Position numbers and translations under genes: made by a program. From NCBI RefSeq assembly GCF_033547095.1, contig NZ_CP137852.1, forward strand, positions 372,001 to 436,000: a stretch of DNA of 64,000 nt, read 5' to 3'. This DNA is from Sediminicoccus rosea (GTDB lineage Bacteria; Pseudomonadota; Alphaproteobacteria; Acetobacterales; Acetobacteraceae). This document shows, piece after piece, positions 4,021-57,202 of the stretch. Within the stretch, counting starts at the first letter, position 1; each line of letters opens with the position of its first letter. Under the pieces are notes generated by a model. It was not told the DNA's origin. It saw only the letters and a list, made by a program, of their open reading frames with translations, and did no database searches.

Positions 4021-5358
4021 TCACCACGTCATCTCCAGAAGCGCGATGCGATTCTCCGAGAGCGGCAGCACGCGGCCCGCGATGCCTTCCTGGTTGAAGA
4101 CGCCCGCGATGGGTGTGCCCAGGCGCTCGGCCGGCAGGCGGAGATTGGCCACGGCGAGGCTCGCGACACCTTCGCGCCGCTCCGCCACCTCGCGCCCATC
4201 CAGCAGCACCACGTCGCGCGGCCAGGAGAAATAGCCGCGCGGCCGCGTGAGGCGCGTGAGGCTGGCGGCGGCACGATCCGCCTCGGTGAGTGGGGCGGGC
4301 GGGCGCAGGTGCAGCACCTCGGTCGACCGCGGGAAGGGCGAGCGGAAGTAATGCGCGGTCGGATGGCCGGGCGCCGTCAGCACGATTTCCAGCGTCCAGT
4401 CGCTCTGCACCGTCACCGGCCCCCAGACCCCATCCGTGCCCGTCTCGCGCCGATGGATCGCCTCGCCGATGCGCGCACCTGTGCGGGCATCGGTGCGGAA
4501 GATCTCCACCACGGCACCCGCGACGGGGCGGTTGGTGGCACCGCCGGCGACGAGGTTGGTGACCAGGCCATTCAGCACCGGCCGCGCCTCGGCTGGCACG
4601 GTGAGCGTCGCGGGTTCGCGTCCGGCGATGAAGCGGAACTGCTCGCGGAAGGCACGCCAGTGATAGGCGATCTCGCGGTGGTCCAGCCCGGGCAGCAGGA
4701 TGTTGGTGGCGCCGCGCAGCGCGGGGCCATCCTGCGTGATGCCGGTGGGCGTGCCGGGGCGGCCGACGAAGCGGCCATCGGGCTGGGCGAAGAGGTCATT
4801 GTCGGAGCGCAGCGCGAGGAAGGCCGTACCCTCCACCACGTCGGAGGCGCCGCCGTTCAGCCGCCGCAGGAAGGGGCTGCGCGCGTTGAACTCACTCCCT
4901 TCGTTGAACTCCCAGTCGAAGACGCCGCGATTGGGCGTGCCGCAGGTGATGGCGTGGCTGACCTGCGTGGCACCGCCCTGGTGCACCACGAAATCGCGGA
5001 TTGGATAGCCGCCGCGCGAATTGCCGATGAGCGCCACGCGCGGCGCGCCGGTGCGGGCCCGCAGCTCGGCCACGAAGGCGGCCAGGCGCTGGGTCTGCTC
5101 GGCGCTGGAGCTGCGGTTGTCCTGCGGCACCGCGTCATTCGCGCGCGCCAGCGGGTCCGGCATGTTGACCGCCATCAGGCGATCGCGCGGCCAGCCATTC
5201 ACCTCGAAGCGCCAGAGGGTGGTGAGCCAGAGCGCGGCATGGTCGCCATTGCCATGCACCATGAGGATGGGCGGCAAGGCTTCCTGCGCGCGCAGGGTGG
5301 CGGGGGCGGCGAGCGCGGCGGCGGCGCCGAGGAGCAGGGAGCGTCGGGCGAGCATCAT
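4021..5358 (-). CDS. Secreted alpha/beta hydrolase, esterase/lipase-like
   Basis: A 445-residue exported hydrolase. The N-terminus (MMLARRSLLLGAAAALAAPA) has paired arginines and looks like a Tat or Sec signal. The catalytic domain (about 28-250) has an oxyanion segment MVHGNGDH and the nucleophile elbow GNSRGG (Ser114). The C-terminal part (about 265-445) is beta-rich, with a segment like carboxypeptidase regulatory domains (residues about 270-350). This resembles extracellular lipases or polyester depolymerases, but the substrate is not evident. Two adjacent ATG codons make the start uncertain by one residue. The gene lies between the HAD gene and a Bug receptor on the same strand. Confidence 0.8.
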   Translation of the reverse strand: MMLARRSLLLGAAAALAAPATLRAQEALPPILMVHGNGDHAALWLTTLWRFEVNGWPRDRLMAVNMPDPLARANDAVPQDNRSSSAEQTQRLAAFVAELRARTGAPRVALIGNSRGGYPIRDFVVHQGGATQVSHAITCGTPNRGVFDWEFNEGSEFNARSPFLRRLNGGASDVVEGTAFLALRSDNDLFAQPDGRFVGRPGTPTGITQDGPALRGATNILLPGLDHREIAYHWRAFREQFRFIAGREPATLTVPAEARPVLNGLVTNLVAGGATNRPVAGAVVEIFRTDARTGARIGEAIHRRETGTDGVWGPVTVQSDWTLEIVLTAPGHPTAHYFRSPFPRSTEVLHLRPPAPLTEADRAAASLTRLTRPRGYFSWPRDVVLLDGREVAERREGVASLAVANLRLPAERLGTPIAGVFNQEGIAGRVLPLSENRIALLEMTW

Positions 5359-45277: not shown

Positions 45278-48200
45278 ATGTTTACACAAGCGAATGTCTC
45301 GTTTTCTGCGCAGTGGGGGACTGGTCTGATCGGCCAGATGCGGGTGTCCAACGACTCGCAGCTGCTCAATAATTGGACGATCACCTTCGACGTCCCGTTC
45401 CAGATTGTGAATCTGTGGGACGCCACCATCCTCACCGCCACGAACCTGGGCGGTGGCATGATCCGCTACACCGTGGGCAGCGCCGGCTGGAATGCCAGCG
45501 TGCCGCCCGGCGGCGGCGTCAGCTTCGTCTTCGAGGGGCGGGCCGAGTCCAACATCCAGGCCCAGCTCACCGGCGTCACCTTTGGTTCCACCGAGGCCCT
45601 GGCCGTGCCGCCCGCCGTGACCATCAGCGATGCGGTCCTGGCCGAGGGCGCCTCGGGCACCAAGGAGATGGTGTTCACCGTCTCCCTCTCGAAGCCCGCG
45701 ACCGAGACGGTCACGGTGCCCTGGTCCACCCAGGACGGCACGGCGCTGGCCGGCAGCGACTACAACGCCGCCTCGGGTAGCCTGACCTTCGCGCCGGGCG
45801 AGACGAGCAAGACCATCTCCGTCACCATCCGCGGCGATGCGGCGGTGGAGGCGAACGAGACCTTCAACCTGCTGCTCGGCATGCCCCTGGGCGCCACCAC
45901 CGCCGATGGCACGGCGCTCGGCACCATCCAGAATGACGACGTCCTGCCGAGTCTCTCCATCGCCGATGCCCAGGTGAGCGAAGGCAATGCCGGCACCCGG
46001 CTCATGGTCTTCACCGTGACGCTCTCGGCTGCCGCGCAGGGCCCCGTGACCGTCGCCTACACCACGCGCGACGGCACGGCGCTGGCCGGCACCGACTACA
46101 ACGCCCAGAGCGGCAGCCTCAGCTTCGCCGCGGGCGAGACCAGCAAGACCATCGCCGTCGAGATCCGCGGCGACACGGTGGACGAGATCGACGAGAGCTT
46201 CGAGATCGCGCTCAGCGGCCTCACGGCGGCCAGCTTCGCGCGCTCCAGCGCCATCGGCGTCATCGCCAATGACGATGCGCCGCCCGTCCTCAGCGTCTCC
46301 AACGCCGAGGTGGTGGAGGGCAATTCCGGCACGCGCAGCGTCGTCTTCACCCTCAGCCTGAGCCAGGCGATCGCGCAGAGCGTGAGCGCCAACTTCGCGA
46401 CGCAGGACGGCACGGCATTGGCCGGCAGCGACTATGTGGCGCGCAGCGGCAGCGTTACCTTCGCCGCCGGCGAGACGAGCAAGACCGTCTCCGTCACGGT
46501 GAACGGCGATACCGCCATCGAGGCGGACGAGACCTTCGGCCTGGTGCTGAGCAATGTGGCGCGCGCCACATTGGCGCCCGGCGGCGGCACCGGCACCATC
46601 CGCAATGACGACCTGCCGCCGCCGACGCTTGCCATCAGCGACGCGCAGGTGACGGAGGGCGATGCCGGCACGAAGCAGATGCTCTTCACCGTCACGCTCT
46701 CCCGCGCCATCTCGAGCACCGCCTCCGTCACCTGGGCCACGCAGAACGGCACGGCGGCCTCGGGCAGCGACTACACGGGGGCAAGGGGCACGCTGAGCTT
46801 CGCCGCGGGCGAGGTCAGCAAGACCATCGCGGTCGCGGTGCGCGGCGATACGGCGGTTGAGGCGAACGAGACCTTCTCCGTCGTGCTCGGCACCGCGACG
46901 CGCGCGACCATCGCGGATGGCACGGGCCTCGGCACCATCCTGAACGATGACGTGCCGCCGACGCTCACCATCAGTGACGCGCAGGTGACGGAGGGCGATG
47001 CCGGCACGAAGCAGATGCTCTTCACCGTCACGCTCTCCCGCGCCATCTCCAGCACCGCCTCCGTCACCTGGACGACGCAGGCCGGCACGGCGACGGCGGG
47101 CACGGATTTCACGGCGGCCAGCGGCACGCTGAGCTTCGCGGCGGGCGAGGTCAGCAAGACCATCGCGGTGACGCTGCGCGGGGATACGGCGGTGGAGGCG
47201 GATGAGAACTTCTCCGTCGTGCTTGGCACCGCGACACGGGCGACCATCGCCGATGGCACGGCCACCGGCACCATCCTCAACGACGACCAGCCGCCGCCGA
47301 CGCTTGCCATCAGCGATGCCCAGGTGACGGAGGGCGATGCCGGCACGAAGCAGATGCTCTTCACCGTCTCGCTCTCGCGCGCAGCGACGGGCGCGGTCTC
47401 GGTGAACTACGCGACGCAGGCCGGGACGGCCACGGCCGGCAGCGACTTCGTCGCGGCCAGCGGCACGCTGAACTTCGCGGCTGGCGAGATCAGCAAGACC
47501 ATCGCCGTGACCATCAACGGCGACACGGCAGTGGAAGCGAATGAGAGCTTCAACCTGCTGCTCTCGGGCGCCGCCGGCGCGACCATCGCGGATGGCACGG
47601 GCCTCGGCACCATCCAGAATGATGATGTCCTGCCCACGCTCGCCATCGCCGACGCGCAGATCGCCGAGGGCAATGCCGGCGTCACGCAGATGCTGTTCAC
47701 CGTCACCCTCTCACGCGCCATGGGCGGCCCCGTGACGGTGAGCTATGCGACGCAGGCCGGCACGGCGACGGCGGGCGCGGATTTCACGGCGGCCACCGGC
47801 ACGCTGAGCTTCGCGGCGGGCGAGACCAGCAAGACCATCGCCGTCGCCGTCAATGGCGACACGGCGGTGGAGGCGAATGAGGGCTTCAACCTGCTGCTCT
47901 CCGCCGCCAATGGCGCCACCATCACCGACGGCACCGCGCTGGGCACCATCCTGAACGACGATGTCTCCGCGCCCCCGCCCTCCGGCGATACCGCGACCTT
48001 CCGCGTGACCGAGCGCTGGAACGGCGGCTTCCTCGCCGAGATCACCGTCGTCAACGACGCGACGCCGATCGAGGGCGGCTGGACGCTGGCCTTCGACGCG
48101 CCCTTCCAGATCAAGGGCGTCTGGAACGCTGAGATCGTCAGCCAGTCGGGCAGCAGCTACGTCATCCGCAACGCGCCCTGGAACGGCAATATCGGCCCGC

Positions 48201-49708
48201 TCGGTACCACCACCTTCGGCATTGACGTGGCGGGTTCGGGCGAGCCGGTGAACTTCAGCGTGAATGGCGCGGCCCCGGCCCCCGTGCTGCCCGGCCTCAG
48301 CATCGCCGACGCCTTCCTGACCGAAGGCGATGCGGGCAGCGCGCTGATGAACTTCACCGTCAGCCTCTCCGCGGCGGCGGCCGAGGCCGTTACGGTGCAA
48401 TACGGCACGGCCAATGGCTCGGCGCTGGCGGGCCTCGATTACCAGGCCCTGAGCGGCAGCCTCACCTTCGCGCCGGGCGAGGTGAGCAAGGTCCTCTCCG
48501 TCGCCATCCTGGGCGACACGCTGCGCGAGGGCACCGAGAGCTTCGCCCTCAACCTGACGGCGCCCACGGGCGCGCGCCTCGCCGATGGCGCGGCGCTGGG
48601 CAGCATCCGCGACAATGACGCGCCGGCCTCCACCCTGCCGCCGCCCGGCTGGTATTCCACCAGCGGCAACCAGATCATCGACTCCACCGGTGAGGCGGTG
48701 CGGCTGAAGGGCATCAACTGGTTCGGGATGGAGGGTTACCTCGGCGTGCCGGACGGGCTCTACACCCGCAACTGGCAGGACATGATGGAGCAGATGCGGG
48801 AGCTGGGCTTCGATACCATCCGCCTGCCCTTCAGCCTGCAGAACATCCAGCCCGGAGCGATGCCCAACAACATCGTCTATAGCCTGAACCCGGACCTGGT
48901 GGGCCTCTCCAACCTGCAGGTGCTGGACAAGATCGTGGATTACGCCGGCGACCTCGGCATGAAGATCATCCTCGACTGCCACCGCAGCAGCTCGGGCGCG
49001 GGACCCAACGAGAACGGCCTCTGGTACGACCAGAACTTCTCCGAGGCGCAGTGGATCAGCAGCTGGAAGAGCCTGGTCCAGCGGTATGTGGACGACTCCA
49101 CGGTCATCGGCGTGGACCTCCAGAACGAGCCGCATGGCGCGACCTGGACCGACTGGTCGGCTGCGGCCGAGCGCGCGGGCAACGCCATCCATGAGGTGAA
49201 CCCGAACCTGCTCATCGTCGTCGAGGGTGTGGGCAACTACCAGGGCGACTACTACTGGTGGGGCGGGCAGCTCGAAGGCGTGCGGGATGATCCGGTGGTG
49301 CTGCAGCAGGCCAACAAGCTGGTCTATTCGCCGCACGACTATCCGAACTCGATCTACCCGAACAGCTGGTTCGAGGGGCCGAACTTCAAGGACAACCTGC
49401 CCAACGTCTTCCGCGAGCATTGGGGCTTCATCTACGAGGAAGGCATCGCGCCGATCTTCCTCGGCGAGTTCGGCTCCAAGCTGACCGACAGCCGCGACAT
49501 CGCCTGGCTGGACGAGCTGACCCAGTATCTGAACGGCGATTTCGACACGGATGGCGTGCTCGACATCGCGCCCGGTGAGGAGGGGATGAGCTTCGCCTAT
49601 TGGTCCTGGAACCCGAACTCCACGGATACGGGCGGCATCCTCAAGGATGACTGGATCAGCGTGCACCAGCACAAGATGGCGGCGCTGGAATCCATCCTGA
49701 TCGGCTGA
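45278..49708 (+). CDS. Modular extracellular cellulase: CBM2, Calx-beta repeats, GH5
   Basis: A 1476-residue protein. Residues 1-105 look like a cellulose-binding CBM2 module (NVSFSAQWGTGLIGQMRVSN). Seven Calx-beta repeats of about 112 residues follow (111-896), each with an acidic GD and ending near NDD, as in calcium-binding Calx-beta folds. A second CBM2 (about 905-1000, FRVTERWNGGFLAEITVVND), an eighth Calx-beta (1004-1115) and a GH5 glycosidase (about 1124-1476) complete it. GH5 catalytic residues are Glu1284 (VDLQNEPHG) and Glu1397 (FLGEFGSK). There is no N-terminal signal peptide; type I secretion via the C-terminus is likely but no RTX repeats are seen. The ATG has a run of eight Gs about 7 nt upstream. 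Confidence 0.9.
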   Translation: MFTQANVSFSAQWGTGLIGQMRVSNDSQLLNNWTITFDVPFQIVNLWDATILTATNLGGGMIRYTVGSAGWNASVPPGGGVSFVFEGRAESNIQAQLTGVTFGSTEALAVPPAVTISDAVLAEGASGTKEMVFTVSLSKPATETVTVPWSTQDGTALAGSDYNAASGSLTFAPGETSKTISVTIRGDAAVEANETFNLLLGMPLGATTADGTALGTIQNDDVLPSLSIADAQVSEGNAGTRLMVFTVTLSAAAQGPVTVAYTTRDGTALAGTDYNAQSGSLSFAAGETSKTIAVEIRGDTVDEIDESFEIALSGLTAASFARSSAIGVIANDDAPPVLSVSNAEVVEGNSGTRSVVFTLSLSQAIAQSVSANFATQDGTALAGSDYVARSGSVTFAAGETSKTVSVTVNGDTAIEADETFGLVLSNVARATLAPGGGTGTIRNDDLPPPTLAISDAQVTEGDAGTKQMLFTVTLSRAISSTASVTWATQNGTAASGSDYTGARGTLSFAAGEVSKTIAVAVRGDTAVEANETFSVVLGTATRATIADGTGLGTILNDDVPPTLTISDAQVTEGDAGTKQMLFTVTLSRAISSTASVTWTTQAGTATAGTDFTAASGTLSFAAGEVSKTIAVTLRGDTAVEADENFSVVLGTATRATIADGTATGTILNDDQPPPTLAISDAQVTEGDAGTKQMLFTVSLSRAATGAVSVNYATQAGTATAGSDFVAASGTLNFAAGEISKTIAVTINGDTAVEANESFNLLLSGAAGATIADGTGLGTIQNDDVLPTLAIADAQIAEGNAGVTQMLFTVTLSRAMGGPVTVSYATQAGTATAGADFTAATGTLSFAAGETSKTIAVAVNGDTAVEANEGFNLLLSAANGATITDGTALGTILNDDVSAPPPSGDTATFRVTERWNGGFLAEITVVNDATPIEGGWTLAFDAPFQIKGVWNAEIVSQSGSSYVIRNAPWNGNIGPLGTTTFGIDVAGSGEPVNFSVNGAAPAPVLPGLSIADAFLTEGDAGSALMNFTVSLSAAAAEAVTVQYGTANGSALAGLDYQALSGSLTFAPGEVSKVLSVAILGDTLREGTESFALNLTAPTGARLADGAALGSIRDNDAPASTLPPPGWYSTSGNQIIDSTGEAVRLKGINWFGMEGYLGVPDGLYTRNWQDMMEQMRELGFDTIRLPFSLQNIQPGAMPNNIVYSLNPDLVGLSNLQVLDKIVDYAGDLGMKIILDCHRSSSGAGPNENGLWYDQNFSEAQWISSWKSLVQRYVDDSTVIGVDLQNEPHGATWTDWSAAAERAGNAIHEVNPNLLIVVEGVGNYQGDYYWWGGQLEGVRDDPVVLQQANKLVYSPHDYPNSIYPNSWFEGPNFKDNLPNVFREHWGFIYEEGIAPIFLGEFGSKLTDSRDIAWLDELTQYLNGDFDTDGVLDIAPGEEGMSFAYWSWNPNSTDTGGILKDDWISVHQHKMAALESILIG
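45608..47965 (+). repeat. Seven tandem Calx-beta coding repeats
   Basis: The DNA is a tandem array of seven units of about 336 bp (112-113 codons). Units 4, 5 and 6 (from about 46616 to 47629) are most alike: long stretches, for example the codons for QVTEGDAGTKQMLFTV, are nearly identical at DNA level. Units 1-3 and 7 are more diverged. This points to recent duplication or gene conversion in the centre of the array. An eighth, more diverged unit lies separately at about 48287-48622. Confidence 0.9.
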
Positions 49709-49714
49709 GCGGGC

Positions 49715-49733
49715 GGGGGGTCTCAGACCCCCC
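49715..49733. terminator. Hairpin between convergent genes
   Basis: GGGGGGTC, loop TCA, GACCCCCC forms a perfect 8 bp stem between the cellulase stop and the nusB stop. No T-tract follows on either strand, so a role in ending both convergent transcripts is likely but not certain. Confidence 0.55.
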
Positions 49734-49753
49734 CCAACCTGCCGCGGAGCGTC

Positions 49754-50236
49754 CTAGAATTCCTCGGCGCGGAGCGCGCGGGCCAGCGCGTCCAGCACGC
49801 CGTTGCAGAAGCGCGGCTCCTCGCCGCCGAAGAAGCCGTGCGCGACGTCCATGTATTCCTTGATGACGACGCGCGCGGGCGGCCCGCCCATGTCGCGCAG
49901 CTCGCCCGCGGCGGCGCGCAGGATGGCGCGCAGCACCGGGTCCAGCCGGTTCATCGCCCAGCCCGAGGCGAGGTGGGCGGCGATGAGCTGGTCGAGGTCA
50001 TCCGTGTGGGTGGCCGCACCGCGCATGATGCGCGCGAAGAGCGGCACATCCGCCTCCTCCACGCGGCCATCCTCGAAGCCCTGCTGGCCCGGGGCGGCGC
50101 CCAGGCGGTGGCGGATGAACTGGTCCAGCACCGTCTCGATGTTCTCGCCCGACTGCTCGGTCTGGAACAGTGCCTGGACGGCGGCGACGCGCGCGCCGGT
50201 GCGCGGGCGGCCCGGAGGCTTGGCGGCGGCCTTCAT
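49754..50236 (-). CDS. nusB: Transcription antitermination factor NusB
   Basis: A 160-residue all-helical factor that with NusE binds boxA RNA in rRNA antitermination. Family blocks are ARVAAVQALFQTEQSG near the N-terminus, LDPVLRAILRAAAGEL in the middle and VVIKEYMDVAHGFFGGEEPR with FCNGVLDALAR at the end. It overlaps ribH by 4 nt (ATGA), the usual ribH-nusB pairing in alphaproteobacteria, and is the last gene of the riboflavin operon. Confidence 0.95.
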   Translation of the reverse strand: MKAAAKPPGRPRTGARVAAVQALFQTEQSGENIETVLDQFIRHRLGAAPGQQGFEDGRVEEADVPLFARIMRGAATHTDDLDQLIAAHLASGWAMNRLDPVLRAILRAAAGELRDMGGPPARVVIKEYMDVAHGFFGGEEPRFCNGVLDALARALRAEEF

Positions 50237-50724
50237 CCGAGGCCCCAGCGGCGGCGCAGCGCCACCTGCATGAGTGCGGCCTGCGCGGCCTCGGCCCCCT
50301 TGTTGTGCTGGTCCTGGCGCGACCGTTCGATGGCCTGCTGGAGGGTGTGCACGGTCAGCAACCCGAAGCCGATGGCAGCGCCGGAATCGGTCGAGATGTT
50401 CATCACGCCCGAGCAGGCTTCGCGGCAGATGTGGTCATAATGGTCGGTCTCGCCGCGTACGACACAGCCGAGCAGCACGAAGCCGTCCCAGCGCGGCTCC
50501 TCGTCATCGGCGTCGAGCGCCATGCGGAGCGCGGCCGGCAGTTCGAAGGCGCCAGCCACGTCCACGATCTCGAGCAGGCCGCCCGCTTCCGCCACCACGC
50601 GCTCCACGCCCTGGCGCATGCCGCCCACGATCTCGTCGTAATAGGGGGCCTGGATCAGCAGGATGCGCACGGGCGCGCCCGGCACCTGCACCGTGTCGCG
50701 CTTGGGTCCATCAACCGTGCTCAT
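50233..50724 (-). CDS. ribH: 6,7-Dimethyl-8-ribityllumazine synthase
   Basis: A 163-residue enzyme that condenses the ribitylamino-uracil with dihydroxybutanone phosphate, the penultimate riboflavin step. Family blocks: RILLIQAPYYDEIVGGM, VAGAFELPAALRMAL, GFVLLGCVVRGETDHYDHI, and GFGLLTVHTLQQAIER. Its ATG is the fifth in a chain of identical initiation sites: the stop of the last of four upstream minicistrons overlaps it (ATGA), and GGAG lies 7 nt before it. Translation is therefore probably governed by the minicistron array. Confidence 0.96.
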   Translation of the reverse strand: MSTVDGPKRDTVQVPGAPVRILLIQAPYYDEIVGGMRQGVERVVAEAGGLLEIVDVAGAFELPAALRMALDADDEEPRWDGFVLLGCVVRGETDHYDHICREACSGVMNISTDSGAAIGFGLLTVHTLQQAIERSRQDQHNKGAEAAQAALMQVALRRRWGLG

Positions 50725-50828
50725 TGATCTGCTCCGCAGATGGGGCTCATTGATCTGCTCCGCAGATGGGGCTCATTGATCTGCTCCGCAGATGGGGCTC
50801 ATTGATCCGCTCCGCCGATGGGGCTCAT
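50725..50828 (-). repeat. Four tandem 26-bp start-stop minicistrons between ribBA and ribH
   Basis: On the minus strand, a 26-bp unit occurs four times with ATGs at 50828, 50802, 50776 and 50750; ribH starts at 50724, again 26 bp on. Each ATG opens a frame of nine codons (MSPIGGADQ once, then MSPICGADQ three times) closed by a TGA that overlaps the next ATG as ATGA. The first ATG overlaps the ribBA stop as TGATG. Each unit contains GGAG 7 nt before the next ATG, set in the hairpin ATCTGC-GGA-GCAGAT. The unit nearest ribBA differs at two bases; the other three are identical. The pattern is read directly; its translation is inferred. Confidence 0.9.
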
Positions 50829-51949
50829 CAGCTCTCTCCCACGACCGGCCGCGTGGCCACCACGCGCAGGCCCCAGCCCTCCAGCCCCACCAGCGGGCGC
50901 GGATGGTTGGAAAGGCGGATCATGTCGGTCACGCCGAGATCGGCGAGAATCTGCGCGCCCACGCCATAGTCGCGCAGCTGCGGCGTTGCGTTGTTGTCGC
51001 GGTTGCGGCGCACATGGGTGCTGATGCCGTCCCGCCGGTAGTCGCGCAGGATGACGACGACGCCGCGGCCCTCGGCGGCGATGGCCTCCATCGCGCCGTG
51101 CAGTTCGCGCACGCCGCGGCCGCCCACCATGTCGGTCATCAGGTTGGCCGCGTGCATGCGCGTCAGCACCGGCTCCGGCCCCGTGATGTCGCCCTTGATG
51201 AGGGCGACATGCTCACCCGATTCCAGCGCGGAATTGTAGACCACGAGGCGCCAGTCGCCGCCCACGGCGTGGGTGATCTCGCCCTCCTCCACGCGCTTGA
51301 TCAGGCGCTCGGTGCGGCGGCGATGGGCGATCAGGTCGGCGATGGTGCCGAGCTTGAGGCCATGCATCTGCGCGAAGGACACGAGGTCCGGCAGGCGCGC
51401 CATGGTGCCGTCATCGTTCATGATCTCGCAGATCACGCCCGAAGGGTTGAGCCCCGCGAGGCGCGCGAAATCCACCGCCGCCTCGGTATGGCCGGCGCGG
51501 ATCAGCGTGCCGCCCTCGCGCGCCACCAGCGGGAAGACATGGCCGGGTGTGACGATGTGCTCGCGCCCCAGCTCCGGGTTGATGGCGACGGCGACGGTGC
51601 GCGCGCGGTCGGCGGCGGAGATGCCGGTGGTCACGCCGTCGCGCGCCTCGATGCTGACGGTGAAGGCCGTCTGGTGGCGCGTGCCGTTGGATTGCGCCAT
51701 GAGCGGCAGCGCCAGCTGCTCGACACGCTGGCGCGTCATCGCCAGGCAGATCAGGCCGCGCGCGAAGCGGGCCATGAAGTTGATCGCGTCGGGCGTTGCG
51801 AATTGCGCGGGGATGACGAGGTCGCCCTCGTTCTCGCGGTCCTCGTCATCCACCAGGATGAACATCCGGCCCCGGCGGGCTTCTTCCAGAAGCTCCTCGG
51901 TCGGCGTGATGAACTCGTGGTAGCTCGTGGTCTTGGTCTGGACGCTCAC
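50828..51949 (-). CDS. ribB: 3,4-Dihydroxy-2-butanone-4-phosphate synthase with degenerate GTP cyclohydrolase II domain
   Basis: A 373-residue riboflavin enzyme. The N-terminal domain (about 12-210) is a complete RibB: MFILVDDEDRENEGDLVIPA, TPGHVFPLVAREGG, RAGHTEAAVDFARLAGL and GVICEIMNDDGTMAR. The C-terminal domain (about 215-373) has the GTP cyclohydrolase II fold and end (LRDYGVGAQILADLG), but it has no cysteine at all, so the zinc site is gone (TRMHAANLMTDMVGG where the CxDCG region belongs). A separate RibA is expected elsewhere. GTG start overlaps the ribE stop (GTGA). Confidence 0.94.
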   Translation of the reverse strand: MSVQTKTTSYHEFITPTEELLEEARRGRMFILVDDEDRENEGDLVIPAQFATPDAINFMARFARGLICLAMTRQRVEQLALPLMAQSNGTRHQTAFTVSIEARDGVTTGISAADRARTVAVAINPELGREHIVTPGHVFPLVAREGGTLIRAGHTEAAVDFARLAGLNPSGVICEIMNDDGTMARLPDLVSFAQMHGLKLGTIADLIAHRRRTERLIKRVEEGEITHAVGGDWRLVVYNSALESGEHVALIKGDITGPEPVLTRMHAANLMTDMVGGRGVRELHGAMEAIAAEGRGVVVILRDYRRDGISTHVRRNRDNNATPQLRDYGVGAQILADLGVTDMIRLSNHPRPLVGLEGWGLRVVATRPVVGES

Positions 51950-52548
51950 GCGCGAAACTCCATCAGCCGAGCGACGTAGCGCGCCAGGGTGTCGATCTCG
52001 ATATTCACCGCATCCCCCGGTTGCAGCGTCCCGAAGCTGGTCACGGCGGCGGTATGGGGAATGATGTTGACCCCGAAACTCTCGGCGTCAACCTCGTTGA
52101 CCGTGAGCGAAACGCCGTCGATCGCGACGCTCCCCTTCACGGCGATGTATTTCGCGATCTCGCGCGGGACGGCGAAGCGCCAGCGGACCGAGGCGTTCTC
52201 CGGCGTGGCGGAGAGCACCTGGCCCACCCCGTCCACATGGCCCGAGACGAGGTGCCCGCCCAACTCGTCGCCGAGCTTCAGGCTGCGCTCCAGGTTCACC
52301 CGGCCGCCGGCCCTCCAGCGGCCCATGGTGGTGCGGGCCAGGGTCTCGGCGCTCGCATCCACGGCGAAGCTGTCGGCGTTGAGTTCCACCGCCGTCAGGC
52401 AGATGCCGGAGCAGGCGATGGAGCAGCCGAGCGCCGCACCGGCCAGGAATTCGGGGGCCACGCCGATGACGAGGCGCATGTCATGCCCCTGGCCGATGGG
52501 CTGCACCTCGCGCAGCGTGCCCAGCGCCGTGATGATTCCGGTGAACAT
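51946..52548 (-). CDS. ribE: Riboflavin synthase alpha chain
   Basis: A 200-residue enzyme that dismutates two lumazine molecules to riboflavin. It shows the two-fold lumazine-binding repeat: MFTGIITALGTLREV with GCSIACSGICLTAVEL in the first half, and HLVSGHVDGVGQV with KGSVAIDGVSLTVNEV in the second. It begins 3 bp after ribD and overlaps ribBA by 4 nt, so it is within one coupled riboflavin unit. Confidence 0.96.
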   Translation of the reverse strand: MFTGIITALGTLREVQPIGQGHDMRLVIGVAPEFLAGAALGCSIACSGICLTAVELNADSFAVDASAETLARTTMGRWRAGGRVNLERSLKLGDELGGHLVSGHVDGVGQVLSATPENASVRWRFAVPREIAKYIAVKGSVAIDGVSLTVNEVDAESFGVNIIPHTAAVTSFGTLQPGDAVNIEIDTLARYVARLMEFRA

Positions 52549-52551
52549 GCG

Positions 52552-53664
52552 CTACTCCTTCACGAACTCGCTCATCACATCCTCACCCACCGCTTCCGTC
52601 GCCACGCGCCGGAAGCGCGGCATGGCGGCGAGTGCGGCGACGCCCAGCGGCCCCGCACTCGGCCAGCCCTCGGCGCCCATCACGCCAGGGGCATGGAACC
52701 AGACGAGCCGGTCCACAAGCCCCGCCCGGAGCAACCCGGCTGCGAGGCCGGCGCCACCCTCGGCCAGCACGCGGGTCACGCCGCGCGCCGCCAGCGCCGC
52801 CAGCATGGCGCGGGGCAGCAGGCCGCCGCCGCCCTCGGCGGTTTTTGGAGCCCGGCGGATGGTCACCACCTCCACCCCTGCGCCGATATAGGGTGCCAGC
52901 GCGGAAGGGCGATGCCCGGCGCCGGTGAGAAGCCAGGTGGGGTGCCGCCCCGCCTCGCGCACCAGCCGCGCCGTGGGGGGCGTGCGGAGCCGGGCATCGG
53001 CGATGACGCGCAGCATGGGCACGGGGTCCATGCCGGCGATGCGGCAGGTGAGGTCCGGGTCATCGGCCAGCACCGTGCCGCTGCCCACCAGCACCGCGTC
53101 GTGCCGGGCGCGCAGGGCATGCACGGCGCGGCGGGATTCGGGGCCGGTGATCCAGCGGCTCTCGCCAGCCTGGGTCGCGATGCGGCCATCCAGGGTCGCG
53201 GCGAGCTTCAGGGTCACCAGCGGCAGGCCCTGGGTGATGCGGCGGATGAAGCCGGCATTGAGCGCCGCCGCCTCAGGCCCCAGCAACCCCTCCTCGACCG
53301 TGATGCCGGCCGCGCGCAGCCGGGCGAAGCCGCGCCCATCCACCCGCGCATCGGGGTCGCGCAGCGCCACCACCACGCGGGAAACGCCGGCCTGGATCAG
53401 CGCATCGCAGCAAGGGGGCGTGCGGCCGTGATGCGAGCAGGGCTCCAGCGTGACATAGGCGGTGGCACCCCGCGCCGCTTCCCCGGCGCGGCCCAAGGCC
53501 TGGGTTTCCGCATGCGGCCGCCCGCCGGGCTGGGTCCAGCCGCGGCCGACCACCTGGCCGTCCTTCACCAGCACGCAGCCCACGGCCGGGTTGGGCCAGG
53601 TGTTGCCCAGGCCGCGCGCCGCGAGTTGCAGCGCCGCGCGCATATGGGCGGCGTCATCCGGCAT
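52552..53664 (-). CDS. ribD: Bifunctional diaminohydroxyphosphoribosylaminopyrimidine deaminase/reductase
   Basis: A 370-residue enzyme for the second and third steps of riboflavin synthesis. The N-terminal deaminase (about 5-145) has zinc ligands in GGRPHAETQAL and VTLEPCSHHGRTPPCCDALI. The C-terminal reductase (about 150-370) has LKLAATLDGRIATQAGESRW and LAEGGAGLAAGLL. Its ATG overlaps the nrdR stop as TGATG, a sign of reinitiation coupling. Confidence 0.96.
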   Translation of the reverse strand: MPDDAAHMRAALQLAARGLGNTWPNPAVGCVLVKDGQVVGRGWTQPGGRPHAETQALGRAGEAARGATAYVTLEPCSHHGRTPPCCDALIQAGVSRVVVALRDPDARVDGRGFARLRAAGITVEEGLLGPEAAALNAGFIRRITQGLPLVTLKLAATLDGRIATQAGESRWITGPESRRAVHALRARHDAVLVGSGTVLADDPDLTCRIAGMDPVPMLRVIADARLRTPPTARLVREAGRHPTWLLTGAGHRPSALAPYIGAGVEVVTIRRAPKTAEGGGGLLPRAMLAALAARGVTRVLAEGGAGLAAGLLRAGLVDRLVWFHAPGVMGAEGWPSAGPLGVAALAAMPRFRRVATEAVGEDVMSEFVKE

Positions 53665-54116
53665 CAGGGGGCGTCCAGGCCACCCAGAAAAGCCTGGAAG
53701 TCCTTGGCCTCGGAGAAGTTCTGGTAGACTGACGCGAAGCGCACATAGGCCACCTGGTCCACGCCCTTCAGCGTGTCCATCACCATCTCCCCGATGCGGC
53801 GGGAGGGGATCTCGGCCTCGGTTTCCATCTCCAGGCGGCGCTGGATGCCGTTCAGGATGCGCTCGATGCGCTCGTCATCCACCGGGCGCTTGCGGCAGGC
53901 GATCTTGATGGATTTGCCGAGCTTGTCGCGGTCGAAGGGCACGCGGCGGCCATCGGTCTTGAGGACGGTGAGTTCGCGCAGCGTCACGCGCTCGAAGGTG
54001 GTGAAGCGGTTGCCGCAGGCCGGGCAGAAGCGCCGGCGACGGATCGCCGCCCCATCCTCGGAGGGGCGGCTGTCCTTCACCTGGGTCTCGTCATTTCCAC
54101 AGTAGGGGCAGCGCAT
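53664..54116 (-). CDS. nrdR: Transcriptional repressor NrdR
   Basis: A 150-residue repressor of ribonucleotide reductase genes. An N-terminal zinc ribbon ([17 protein letters not shown], then [17 protein letters not shown]) is followed by an ATP-cone domain ([19 protein letters not shown]). The ATG before RCPYCG is the family start; an ATG six codons upstream was rejected. It is placed between glyA and ribD as in many alphaproteobacteria, with 157 bp to glyA that hold repeat copy 3 and a hairpin. Confidence 0.96.
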
Positions 54117-54170
54117 GGGCGACCTTCCAGCCAAAACAAAACGGCAGAAAAGACGCTACCCTCGAAGAAT

Positions 54171-54189
54171 CCGGCCGCAAAGCGGCCGG
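54171..54189. other. Perfect hairpin upstream of nrdR
   Basis: CCGGCCGC, loop AAA, GCGGCCGG forms an 8 bp stem in the glyA-nrdR spacer, 55 bp before the nrdR ATG. On the minus strand the following bases are T-rich (TTCTT, later TTTTCT), so it could attenuate read-through from glyA, but there is no clean T-tract. Confidence 0.5.
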
Positions 54190-54227
54190 CGCGCCCAGAC
54201 CACCCTCATCCCCAGCACGCCAGCAGC

Positions 54228-54276
54228 GGCGCGAAGCCAAGCGCGCGGAGCGCGCGCCCGGCGTCTGAGGGCATCA
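54228..54276 (+). repeat. Dispersed multi-hairpin repeat, copy 3 (short)
   Basis: It retains GAAGCCAA, a hairpin (54241-54257, GCGCGCG/CGCGCGC with a 3-nt loop) and CCCGGCGTCTGAGGGC, but lacks the two other stems of copies 1 and 2. The stem sequence differs from copies 1 and 2 on both arms while pairing is kept. The element abuts the glyA stop codon: read on the minus strand, the stop TGA runs into TGCCCTCAGACGCCGGG. Confidence 0.8.
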
Positions 54277-55572
54277 ATAAATGGGGAAGCGCGCGCACAA
54301 GGCCTGCACGTCCTTCGCCACCGCCTGCTCCACGGCCGTGTTGCCGTCCGGCGCATTGGCCTGGGCCAGCCCGTCCAGCACGCGGACGATCAGGCGCCCC
54401 ACCTCCCGGAACTCCGCCTCGCCGAAGCCGCGCGTGGTGCCGGCCGGCGTGCCGAGGCGCACGCCGCTGGTGACCATCGGCTTCTCGGGATCGAAGGGGA
54501 TGGCGTTCTTGTTGCAGGTCAGGTGGGCGCGGCCCAAAGCGGCCTCGGCCGCCTTGCCGGTCAGGCCTTTGGGGCGGAGGTCCACCAGCATCAGATGGCT
54601 GTCCGTGCCGCCCGAGACGATGGCCAGCCCACCCTGCACCAACTCATCCGCCAGGGCGCGGGCATTGGCCACGACCTGCCTGGCATAGGCGCGGAAATCC
54701 GGGCGCAGCGCCTCGCCGAAGGCCACCGCCTTGGCGGCGATGACATGCATCAGCGGGCCGCCCTGCAGGCCCGGGAACATGGCCGAGTTGATCTTCTTCG
54801 CGATCGCCTCGTCATTCGTCAGGATCAGGCCGCCGCGCGGGCCGCGCAGCGTCTTGTGCGTGGTCGTCGTCGTCACATGCGCGTGCGGCACGGGCGAGGG
54901 GTAGGCGCCGGCGGCCACCAGGCCCGCGTAATGCGCCATGTCCACCATCAGGATCGCGCCGATCTCATCGGCCACGGCGCGGAAGCGGGCGAAGTCGATC
55001 TCGCGCGAATAGGCCGAGCCGCCGGCGATGATGAGCTTGGGCTTATGCTCGCGCGCCAGGCGCTCCATCGTCTCGTAGTCGAGCAGCCCGTCCTCGGCCT
55101 TCACGCCATAGGCGATGGGGCGGAACCACTTGCCGGAGTAGTTCACCGGGGCGCCATGCGTCAGGTGGCCGCCGGCCGCGAGGTCCATCGCCAGGAAGCT
55201 GTCGCCCGGCTGCAGCAGGGCGAAGAAGACGGCGATATTGGCCGAGGCGCCGCTATGCGGCTGCACATTGGCGAATTGCGCGCCGAAGAGCTGCTTCGCG
55301 CGCTCGATGGCCAGCGTCTCGGCCACGTCCACGAATTCGCAGCCGCCATAGTAGCGACGGCCCGGATAGCCCTCGGCATACTTGTTCGTCATCACCGAGC
55401 CCTGCGCCTCCAGCACGGCGCGGCTGACGATGTTCTCGGACGCGATCAGCTCGATGCCGTCCTGCTGGCGGGTCAACTCCTGCGCGATGGCGGCGGCCAG
55501 CTCGGGGTCGGACTCCGCCACGCCGGCCTGGAAGAAGCGGGCAGGCAGGAAGCGGGCGGTGTTCTCGTTCAT
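54274..55572 (-). CDS. glyA: Serine hydroxymethyltransferase
   Basis: A 432-residue PLP enzyme that interconverts serine and glycine and charges tetrahydrofolate with one-carbon units. Family blocks: [54 protein letters not shown] and the PLP lysine in [16 protein letters not shown]. The ATG ([14 protein letters not shown]) is a typical start. It follows rpiB by 67 bp, as is common in alphaproteobacteria. Confidence 0.97.
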
Positions 55573-55639
55573 GGCAGAGGTCCTTGCGGGCAGGAAATTC
55601 GGCATATCACGGCCGGGCGCGGCCGGGAAACGCCCGAGA

Positions 55640-56077
55640 TCAGGTGAGGGCGGTCTCGATCTTGGCAATGCGGCGCTCATGCCGCCCGCCCTCGAAGGGC
55701 GTGCCGAGGAAGGTCGCCAGGGCGTCCAGCGCCACCTCCACCCCGGTGGTGCGGGCGCCGAAGCAGGCGATGTTGGCGTCGTTATGGGCGCGGGTCAGGC
55801 GGGCCTCGGTGCTGTTGTGCAGCACCACGGCGCGAATGGCCGGGTGGCGATTGGCCGCGATGCTCATCCCGATGCCCGAGCCGCAGACCAGCACGCCAAA
55901 GGCGGCCTCGCCGGCCGCGACCTTGGCCGCGACCTCATGCGCGAAATCCGGGTAGTCCACGCTTGCCTCGTCATGCGTGCCGGCATCGAGCACGGCATGC
56001 CCCTGGGCTTCCAGGGCGCTGAGGATGGCCCGCTTCAGCGGCAGGCCGGCATGGTCGGAACCGAGGGCGATGATCAT
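55640..56077 (-). CDS. rpiB: Ribose-5-phosphate isomerase B
   Basis: A 145-residue isomerase of the RpiB/LacAB family, interconverting ribose-5-P and ribulose-5-P. The active site is visible in [28 protein letters not shown] (catalytic Cys) and [15 protein letters not shown]. The start ([11 protein letters not shown]) matches the family; ATGs four and six codons upstream are possible, with no clear ribosome site for any. It supplies ribulose-5-P, a precursor for the RibB step encoded downstream. Confidence 0.94.
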
Positions 56078-56143
56078 GGTGCGGTGCATTAACATGCCGG
56101 GCCGGGCCGCCGGAACCGCGCTCTGCTTATGGCGGACCGGCAT

Positions 56144-57202
56144 TCAGCGCCCGGCTTTCTCCCCTGCCAGAAGCCTTTTCTTGTTGGGCACGCCCCAGCG
56201 ATAGCCCGTCAGGTCGCCGCTGGCGCCGATCACCCGGTGGCAGGGGACGGCGAGGCTGACGGGGTTCTGCGCGCAGGCCCGGGCCACGGCGCGCACCGCC
56301 TCCGGCTTGCCCATCCCGGCGGCCAATTGGCCGTAGCTGCGCGTCTGGCCGATCGGGATGGCCTGCAACGCCTCCCACACCCGCCGCTGGAAGGCGGTGC
56401 CCCGCAGGTCGAGCGGCAATTGCAGCGCCGCGTGGGGCTCGCGCAGGAAGGCGGCGACCCGCGCCACGGTGGCGTCCAGCGCGGGGTCCTCCCGCAATTG
56501 GGCCAGGGGGAAGCGGCGGCGGAGGTCGCCCTCCAGCGCCTCCATCGCCTCGCCGAAGCCGATGAAGCAGACGCCCTGCGCCGTGGCGCCCACCAGCAGC
56601 GGGCCCATCACGCTCTCGGCGCGGGCGATGCCGATGGTCTCGCCCTTCGCCCCTCGCCGGGCGGCGCCGGGCGTCATGCCGAGGGTGGCGCCGCGCTTCT
56701 CATAGACCCGGCTCTCGCTGCCGAAGCCGGCCTCGGCCACCGCATCGGCCACCCGTGCCCCCTGGCTGAGGGCGGATTGCAGGCGGCGGGCGCGCACCCC
56801 CTCGGCATAGGAGCGCGGGGTGACGCCAGTGATGTCGCGGAACAGGCGCAGGAAATGGTGGCGCGCATAGCCGGCGCGCCTGGCCAGCGCCTCCAGGCTC
56901 GGGATGGTCTCGCTCGCCTCGATCAGGGCCACGGCGGCGGCGACGGCCTCGCGGTGCAGGGCGGCACGCTCGCCCTTGGGGTCGCAGCGCTTGCAGGCAC
57001 GGTAGCCCGCAGCCTCGGCCTCCGGCGCATCGGCGAAGAAGACGGTGTTGCGCCGCAAGGGCGGGCGCGAGGGGCAGCCGGGCAGGCAAAAGACGCCCTG
57101 GGTGGTCACGCCATAGAGGAAGGGGCCGCAATCGGGGGTCGCGTCCCGCGCCAGGAGGGCGGTCCAGCGGCGGTCATCGAGCGGGGGAAGGGTGTCGGGC
57201 AT
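56144..57202 (-). CDS. ada: Bifunctional Ada: DNA repair methyltransferase and regulator
   Basis: A 352-residue adaptive-response protein. The N-terminal zinc domain (about 10-80) has GVTTQGVFCLPGCPSRPP and ACKRCDPKGE, giving the four zinc cysteines including the phosphotriester acceptor. An AraC-type helix-turn-helix region follows (about 90-180, YARHHFLRLFRDITGVTPRS). The C-terminal O6-methylguanine transferase ends in the acceptor motif AVPCHRVIG. Methylation turns it into an activator of alkylation-repair genes. The ATG is the only one giving a normal N-terminus; there is no clear ribosome site. Confidence 0.95.
   Translation of the reverse strand: MPDTLPPLDDRRWTALLARDATPDCGPFLYGVTTQGVFCLPGCPSRPPLRRNTVFFADAPEAEAAGYRACKRCDPKGERAALHREAVAAAVALIEASETIPSLEALARRAGYARHHFLRLFRDITGVTPRSYAEGVRARRLQSALSQGARVADAVAEAGFGSESRVYEKRGATLGMTPGAARRGAKGETIGIARAESVMGPLLVGATAQGVCFIGFGEAMEALEGDLRRRFPLAQLREDPALDATVARVAAFLREPHAALQLPLDLRGTAFQRRVWEALQAIPIGQTRSYGQLAAGMGKPEAVRAVARACAQNPVSLAVPCHRVIGASGDLTGYRWGVPNKKRLLAGEKAGR

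Follow-up and report, generated by a model that had tools for sequence, protein, structure and literature searches.

In the 64,000-nucleotide stretch of the Sediminicoccus rosea genome analysed here (the window; contig NZ_CP137852.1, positions 372,001 to 436,000), four 26-bp units on the minus strand (50828-50725) chain ribBA to ribH through stop/start overlaps. We read this array as probably a serial termination-reinitiation relay that tolerates changes in copy number and whose peptides are incidental. What is new is that such chains, as compared at the sequence level, recur at unrelated junctions, with a common frame rule and, mostly, a local origin; searches of open-licence papers brought up no account of junction-derived tandem minicistrons. 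The array and its neighbours, with the rib operon genes named from NCBIfam, are as follows:

50828..51949, minus strand: ribBA (a RibB domain and a RibA-like domain with a weak match), the upstream cistron
50803..50828, minus strand: unit 1, MSPIGGADQ, ATG at 50828, TGA at 50801-50799, stem with a G-G mismatch
50777..50802, minus strand: unit 2, MSPICGADQ, TGA at 50775-50773, perfect 6-bp stem whose loop, GGA, is part of the Shine-Dalgarno (SD) sequence
50751..50776, minus strand: unit 3, identical to unit 2
50725..50750, minus strand: unit 4, identical to unit 2, its TGA (50723-50721) overlapping the ribH start as ATGA and its GGAG-N7 serving ribH
50233..50724, minus strand: ribH (lumazine synthase), the downstream cistron, with an ATGA overlap with nusB
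49754..50236, minus strand: nusB, the next overlapping cistron

The operon that hosts the array is tightly packed, ribE/ribBA and ribH/nusB overlapping by four bases each. The A of the ribBA stop codon (TGA, 50830-50828) is the first base of the unit 1 ATG, every unit TGA overlaps the following ATG as ATGA, and the final one overlaps the ribH ATG (50724). Each unit is a nine-codon ORF, encoding MSPIGGADQ once and then MSPICGADQ three times. GGAG-N7-ATG is found at 5/5 starts (the four units and ribH), the SD of the unit 1 start being located in ribBA (GGAGAGAGCTG), outside the four units. The combination by which termination-reinitiation is recognised, a -4 or -1 nt overlap with an SD before the downstream start, is thus present at all five starts, and the array shares with mycobacterial interspersed repetitive units (MIRUs) its tandem organization and its short ORFs coupled to their neighbours by stop/start overlap. 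Tandem Repeats Finder returned a period of 26 with 97% matches (score 206); at ≤3 mismatches the unit has four matches in the window versus none in 100 shuffles, and ATCTGCNNNGCAGAT has three matches in its own genome, every one inside the array. Units 2-4 are identical, and unit 1 differs from them by two bases. The four coupled minicistrons represent copies of a single design and should not be counted as four separate coincidences. The original prediction had described the chained nine-codon genes, the GGAG 7 nt before the starts and the three identical units, and reading of the minus strand bears out each of these points.

With regard to the neighbouring genes, the RibB half of the ribBA product (50831-51949, minus strand) matches strongly and its RibA half reaches 46 bits against a curated cut-off of 205.85 bits; the product has two cysteines, at residues 68 and 174, and none in the RibA half. 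GTP cyclohydrolase II needs zinc-binding cysteines. This enzyme is probably encoded elsewhere. On the plus strand, 45278-49708 holds a 1476-aa ORF with 336-bp tandem repeats, by eye Calx-beta-like repeats with a cellulase-like end.

In the proposed relay, a ribosome ending ribBA would restart at the overlapping ATG of unit 1, read nine codons, stop at the TGA overlapping the next ATG and repeat these steps until the ribH start. Each unit would provide the SD for the next ATG (GGAG, 7 nt away). In three of the four units this SD is part of a short hairpin, which ribosomes translating the minicistron would melt, keeping ribH translation tied to that of ribBA. The array would have originated by tandem duplication; since the duplicated segment contains an entire stop/start junction, SD included, each added copy would preserve the coupling rather than disrupt it. 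Ribosomes would use every unit start, copy number could influence ribH output, and the peptides would be by-products.

We read the ribBA-ribH junction in 21 genomes of the genus, searched with ribH and including the window's own (G000). Units are present in 7/21 genomes, with four in G000, two in G009 and one each in G008, G012, G014, G015 and G018. The 14 unit-free junctions comprise ten direct 4-nt overlaps, two 1-nt gaps and two gaps of 28 and 46 nt. All ribH units of the genus are open ORFs of 9 or 10 codons, each closing on the start that follows it, which for the last unit is the ribH ATG; their periods are 26 or 29, with frame closure kept despite the length differences and also in the G012 unit, which begins with GTG. 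In a tree built from partial ribBA and ribH, the seven unit-bearing genomes form one clade (support 100/99) in which the window's genome groups with the one-unit G015 (96/97). The branch to G001 and G013, both outside this clade, is implausibly long, probably because ribBA was read in the wrong frame in both. Most simply, these junctions would mean that the clade has long had one unit and that the arrays of four and two units expanded later. Counting units in relatives had been proposed as the check on copy-number variability, and the genus indeed shows 0, 1, 2 or 4 units; these counts and the further arrays described below also favour the tandem duplication that had been suggested as the origin.

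The same variation can be explained by harmless slippage, to which we assign a chance a shade short of even: short direct repeats and a small palindrome would expand by replication slippage, yielding a relay without regulatory role, and selection would just remove the copies whose starts would lead into the next gene in the wrong frame. The three identical units, the differences in unit number between species, the one-unit or empty state of close relatives at both ribH and dctM (see below) and the location of the arrays in functionally unrelated operons are all in line with this explanation, whereas the retention of at least one unit in 7/7 species of the clade, with the frame closed despite changes in length and start codon, points away from it.

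To find arrays at other loci we used a frame-blind pattern covering two successive units (ATGA-N-GGAG-N7-ATGA-N-GGAG-N7-ATG, unit length 23-38) and its GGAG-N6 version. Among 397 genomes of the family, the N7 screen gave 12 matches in 7 genomes (reversed-pattern control, 3 in one genome) and the N6 screen 15 matches in 13 genomes (control, 0). The repeat matches were sorted into junction, coding and leader types after they had been seen, and the family screens provide six junction arrays in addition to that of the window:

G012, dctQ-dctM: two units, period 29
G055, psd-pssA: five units of 29, 29, 29, 29 and 23 bp (pssA identified by domain)
G076, def-COQ9: two units of 26 bp
G381, receiver protein-Hpt protein: two units of 26 bp
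G226, mreD-PBP2: three units of 26 bp (PBP2 identified by domain; MreD match below the Pfam cut-off)
G074, before an AAA ATPase: three units of 29 bp (upstream protein without Pfam match)

In G055 (L138, 1501-1639), the last unit before pssA, 23 bp long, has lost its GGAG, and its frame still closes on a GTG start. No junction array besides the window's was found in 385 genomes of the class (N7; a few family genomes included; control, 0) or in 398 genomes of the phylum (N6; a few family genomes included; control, 1), and the apparent enrichment of arrays in the family is suggestive only. The in-gene repeats from these class and phylum screens have periods of 27 (G905 and G1028) and 36 (G876), and the period-29 array of G840, beside a masked stretch, was not placed at a junction. 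We set aside further family matches as unrepeated, with lengths mixed mod 3 (G052, G065, G345, G081, G037, G257, G246, G394, G002, G403, G357 and a second G381 match), and matches outside the family as unrepeated or low-complexity (G490, G526, G452, G1057, G883 and G847). A different arrangement is seen in G139 (L190, C395), where an ATG is immediately preceded by three 32-bp repeats, all of which contain GGAGG and a short ORF ending in TAG. This is a leader-type rather than a junction array, and it was excluded from the frame count for its in-frame TAG closure and lack of stop/start overlap, though 32 is 2 mod 3.

In each of the six further junction arrays (6/6), the period is 2 mod 3 and the minicistrons close through stop/start overlaps. 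If the three classes are equally likely, the chance of this is (1/3)^6 = 0.0014, or 0.004 without G012, which was known from a similarity search before the screen and is therefore left out of the second figure. With ATGA starts, a minicistron can close on the TGA of the following junction at a period of 2 mod 3 and at no other class of period; unused ATGs would leave the rule without evident reason, and it thus suggests that the unit starts are translated. Note that the rule reflects at most the avoidance of misframed starts, that it is silent on the usefulness of translation, and that it holds equally well if an array is merely harmless. Taken with the genus junctions, it agrees with two further claims of the original prediction, namely that the unit is a duplicated termination-reinitiation module and that the peptide itself is incidental. 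A lone minicistron was rejected as evidence, GGAG-less chains being common among the spurious ORFs of the window. Near 4024 (minus strand), a possible single minicistron (VSITRRLS, then stop), with AGGAGG inside and overlaps on both sides, precedes a 207-aa ORF.

As to the origin of the units, we compared each with a model duplicate of its own junction, made of the first bases of the downstream gene and the last bases of the upstream gene. The match is strong for dctM, pssA, COQ9 and the AAA ATPase (P 0.0005 or less) and moderate for PBP2 (P 0.0085), and no such match was found for G381 (P 0.75). Units thus appear to resemble tandem duplicates of their own junction at five of the six further loci. 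For ribH such an origin is weakly supported (17/29 positions in G015, P 0.036; G009, P 0.096; the window, P 0.091).

The dctQ-dctM locus was reached by a similarity search with the array, which led to the two 29-bp units of G012, MIGPVRGADQ and MIAPSRGADQ (genes by Pfam). A single unit is present at this junction in the window's genome and in G014, and 17/20 readable junctions of the genus have none (G007 has no readable ortholog); in close relatives the empty junctions are direct gene overlaps. In G014, the unit agrees at 24/29 positions with a duplicate of the local junction, composed of the first 15 nt of dctM and the last 14 nt of dctQ. Of the five positions at which G012 departs from the dctQ end, three sit, by our reading, in the 3' arm of the stem, where they would allow it to pair with the other arm.

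The likeness between the ribH and dctM modules raises an improbable alternative, that a MIRU-like mobile or copied element, a CCCC-hairpin-CAATGA module, spread between loci. The two modules are 71% identical outside GGAG, compared with 10-60% for the other 27 locus pairs, and the four differences between CCCCATCTGCGGAGCAGATCAATGA and CCCCGTCCGCGGAGCGGACCAATGA form two compensated pairs. MIRUs are copies of a single element scattered across many genomic loci. By contrast, a search of the 21 genomes for such modules at ≤3 mismatches, which missed the diverged G012 ribH unit and could overlook other diverged copies, found two loci only, plus one GGAG-less match in G015. The four other matches to a 16-nt core at ≤1 mismatch (G000, G008, G018 and G004) are no such units. 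We rejected a dispersed element on this count of just two loci in the window's genome and its clade, a count that diverged copies could escape. Mobility of the MIRU kind would mean insertion at start codons; empty and filled dctQ-dctM junctions both exist, and local duplication explains the filled ones, the dctM unit being accounted for as a copy of its own junction. As no other locus pair has modules as similar as those of ribH and dctM, copying between these two may nevertheless have occurred.

Turning to the hairpin, the original prediction had placed a 6-bp stem in every unit; this is correct for three of the four units, in which the stem is perfect, and fails for the ribBA-side unit, whose two base changes create the G-G mismatch. 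In most units the SD is located within or next to the loop, and the G012 ribH stem is weak (4 bp). Neither the folding of the 151-nt array region, no better than shuffles (z +1.02), nor whole-unit folding energies (P 0.05-0.89) are unusual, and both were dropped as evidence of structure. We then scored SD-in-loop stems, a statistic chosen after folding energies proved unremarkable, averaging over the units of each locus and summing. Outside ribH, the seven repeat loci (the six arrays and G139) total 35.0 bp versus 22.9 ± 2.7 in position shuffles, 0/5000 of which were as high, with P values from 0.026 to 0.47 at single loci. Among ordinary GGAG starts, 8/80 have a stem of ≥6 bp, in a set that includes some unit-bearing loci. 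The covariation score for eight modules from ribH and dctM, a set without one of the G012 dctM units, is 0.333 versus 0.171 in shuffles (3/500 as high), a score inflated by relatedness; three pairs changed on both sides, and further pair types are not raised (422/500).

These stems may result from selection for hiding the SD. Palindromes also tend to be duplicated, and template-switch repair acts on quasi-palindromes, either of which could produce such stems. The recurrence of SD-loop stems is a second point against harmless slippage; like the retention of units in the clade, it is compatible with harmlessness and does not exclude it.

The perfect 15-nt palindrome, present in three copies, could also be a protein-binding site on DNA or RNA, with the ORFs accidental. 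This we regard as very improbable: no sigma-70-type promoter or terminator match lies in 50600-51000, the stem is imperfect in unit 1 and in some relatives, and the frame rule would be left unexplained. In addition, 49000-56500 contains no Rfam match at gathering score, so that no FMN riboswitch or other known structured RNA was detected around the rib operon.

Granted the serial relay that we favour, unit number might itself be selected. Each step would multiply the output of ribH (and nusB) by the reinitiation efficiency, and the number would act as an evolvable dial. The original prediction had suggested that the array could set the ribH:ribBA ratio or be a copy-number-variable tuner, a part of it that stays conjectural. 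The order and spacing of the units would fit such a series, as would the range from 0 to 5 units across loci. We nonetheless find this unlikely, as passages of PMC12548453 report that coupling saturates, and saturation or near-complete reinitiation would, we infer, make the number matter little.

The mechanism has documented counterparts. Coupling at -4 nt, and its dependence on the SD and on structure hiding the SD, are described in PMC12548453, as is the MIRU, which appears to be mobile and has an ORF coupled to the next gene at -4 nt. In the senX3-regX3 intergenic region, strains are described as having either three 77-bp MIRUs or two of 77 bp and one of 53 bp (PMC4213456); by our arithmetic both lengths are 2 mod 3. 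The array resembles MIRUs as short tandem units between operon genes, variable in number, with an ORF coupled to the next gene. It differs from them in unit length (26 bp here versus 77 and 53 bp, lengths alone being compared). MIRUs are described as apparently mobile and found in many mycobacteria, whereas the units here, 23-29 bp long, are largely locus-specific and, at five of the six further loci, resemble their own junction.

In bicistronic designs, a short leader ORF is reported to deliver ribosomes to the next start, so that SD structure matters less (PMC5995908, PMC12548453). In the ribH array the SD of the target lies inside the leader ORF, and 3/4 units have a hairpin that leader translation might open; unlike the engineered versions, the array is natural, lies inside an operon and places four such ORFs in series. 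ORF-11 and ORF-17 at attI1 of class 1 integrons (11 and 17 codons) are also natural short ORFs, described as raising translation of the next gene by coupling (PMC8876359), and are single units at a recombination site rather than tandem junction copies. In a toxin-antitoxin operon, a minigene of two codons is reported to increase translation downstream of it (PMC8708949). Termination-reinitiation at overlapping pairs (ATGA, TGATG) has been tested with reporters (PMC6728339); the basic mechanism is the same, with two full genes there and serial minimal cistrons here. Among natural systems the MIRU comes closest, integron ORFs and bicistronic leaders being single-unit analogues.

A broader proposition, which we offer as speculative and rather doubtful, is that duplication of stop/start junctions is a recurrent route, at least in the Acetobacteraceae, to relays with SD-hiding hairpins, in which unit number would be a reversible, evolvable dial of stoichiometry within operons and the 2 mod 3 period its genomic signature. 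Independently of this proposition, the junctions with 0, 1, 2, 3, 4 or 5 units constitute a natural countable series for measuring serial termination-reinitiation, which bears on the efficiency of reinitiation and on whether both products come from the same ribosome. The period rule would offer a hint, from sequence alone, that very small ORFs are translated, and the arrays illustrate that an operon junction can gain DNA while keeping its stop/start overlap.
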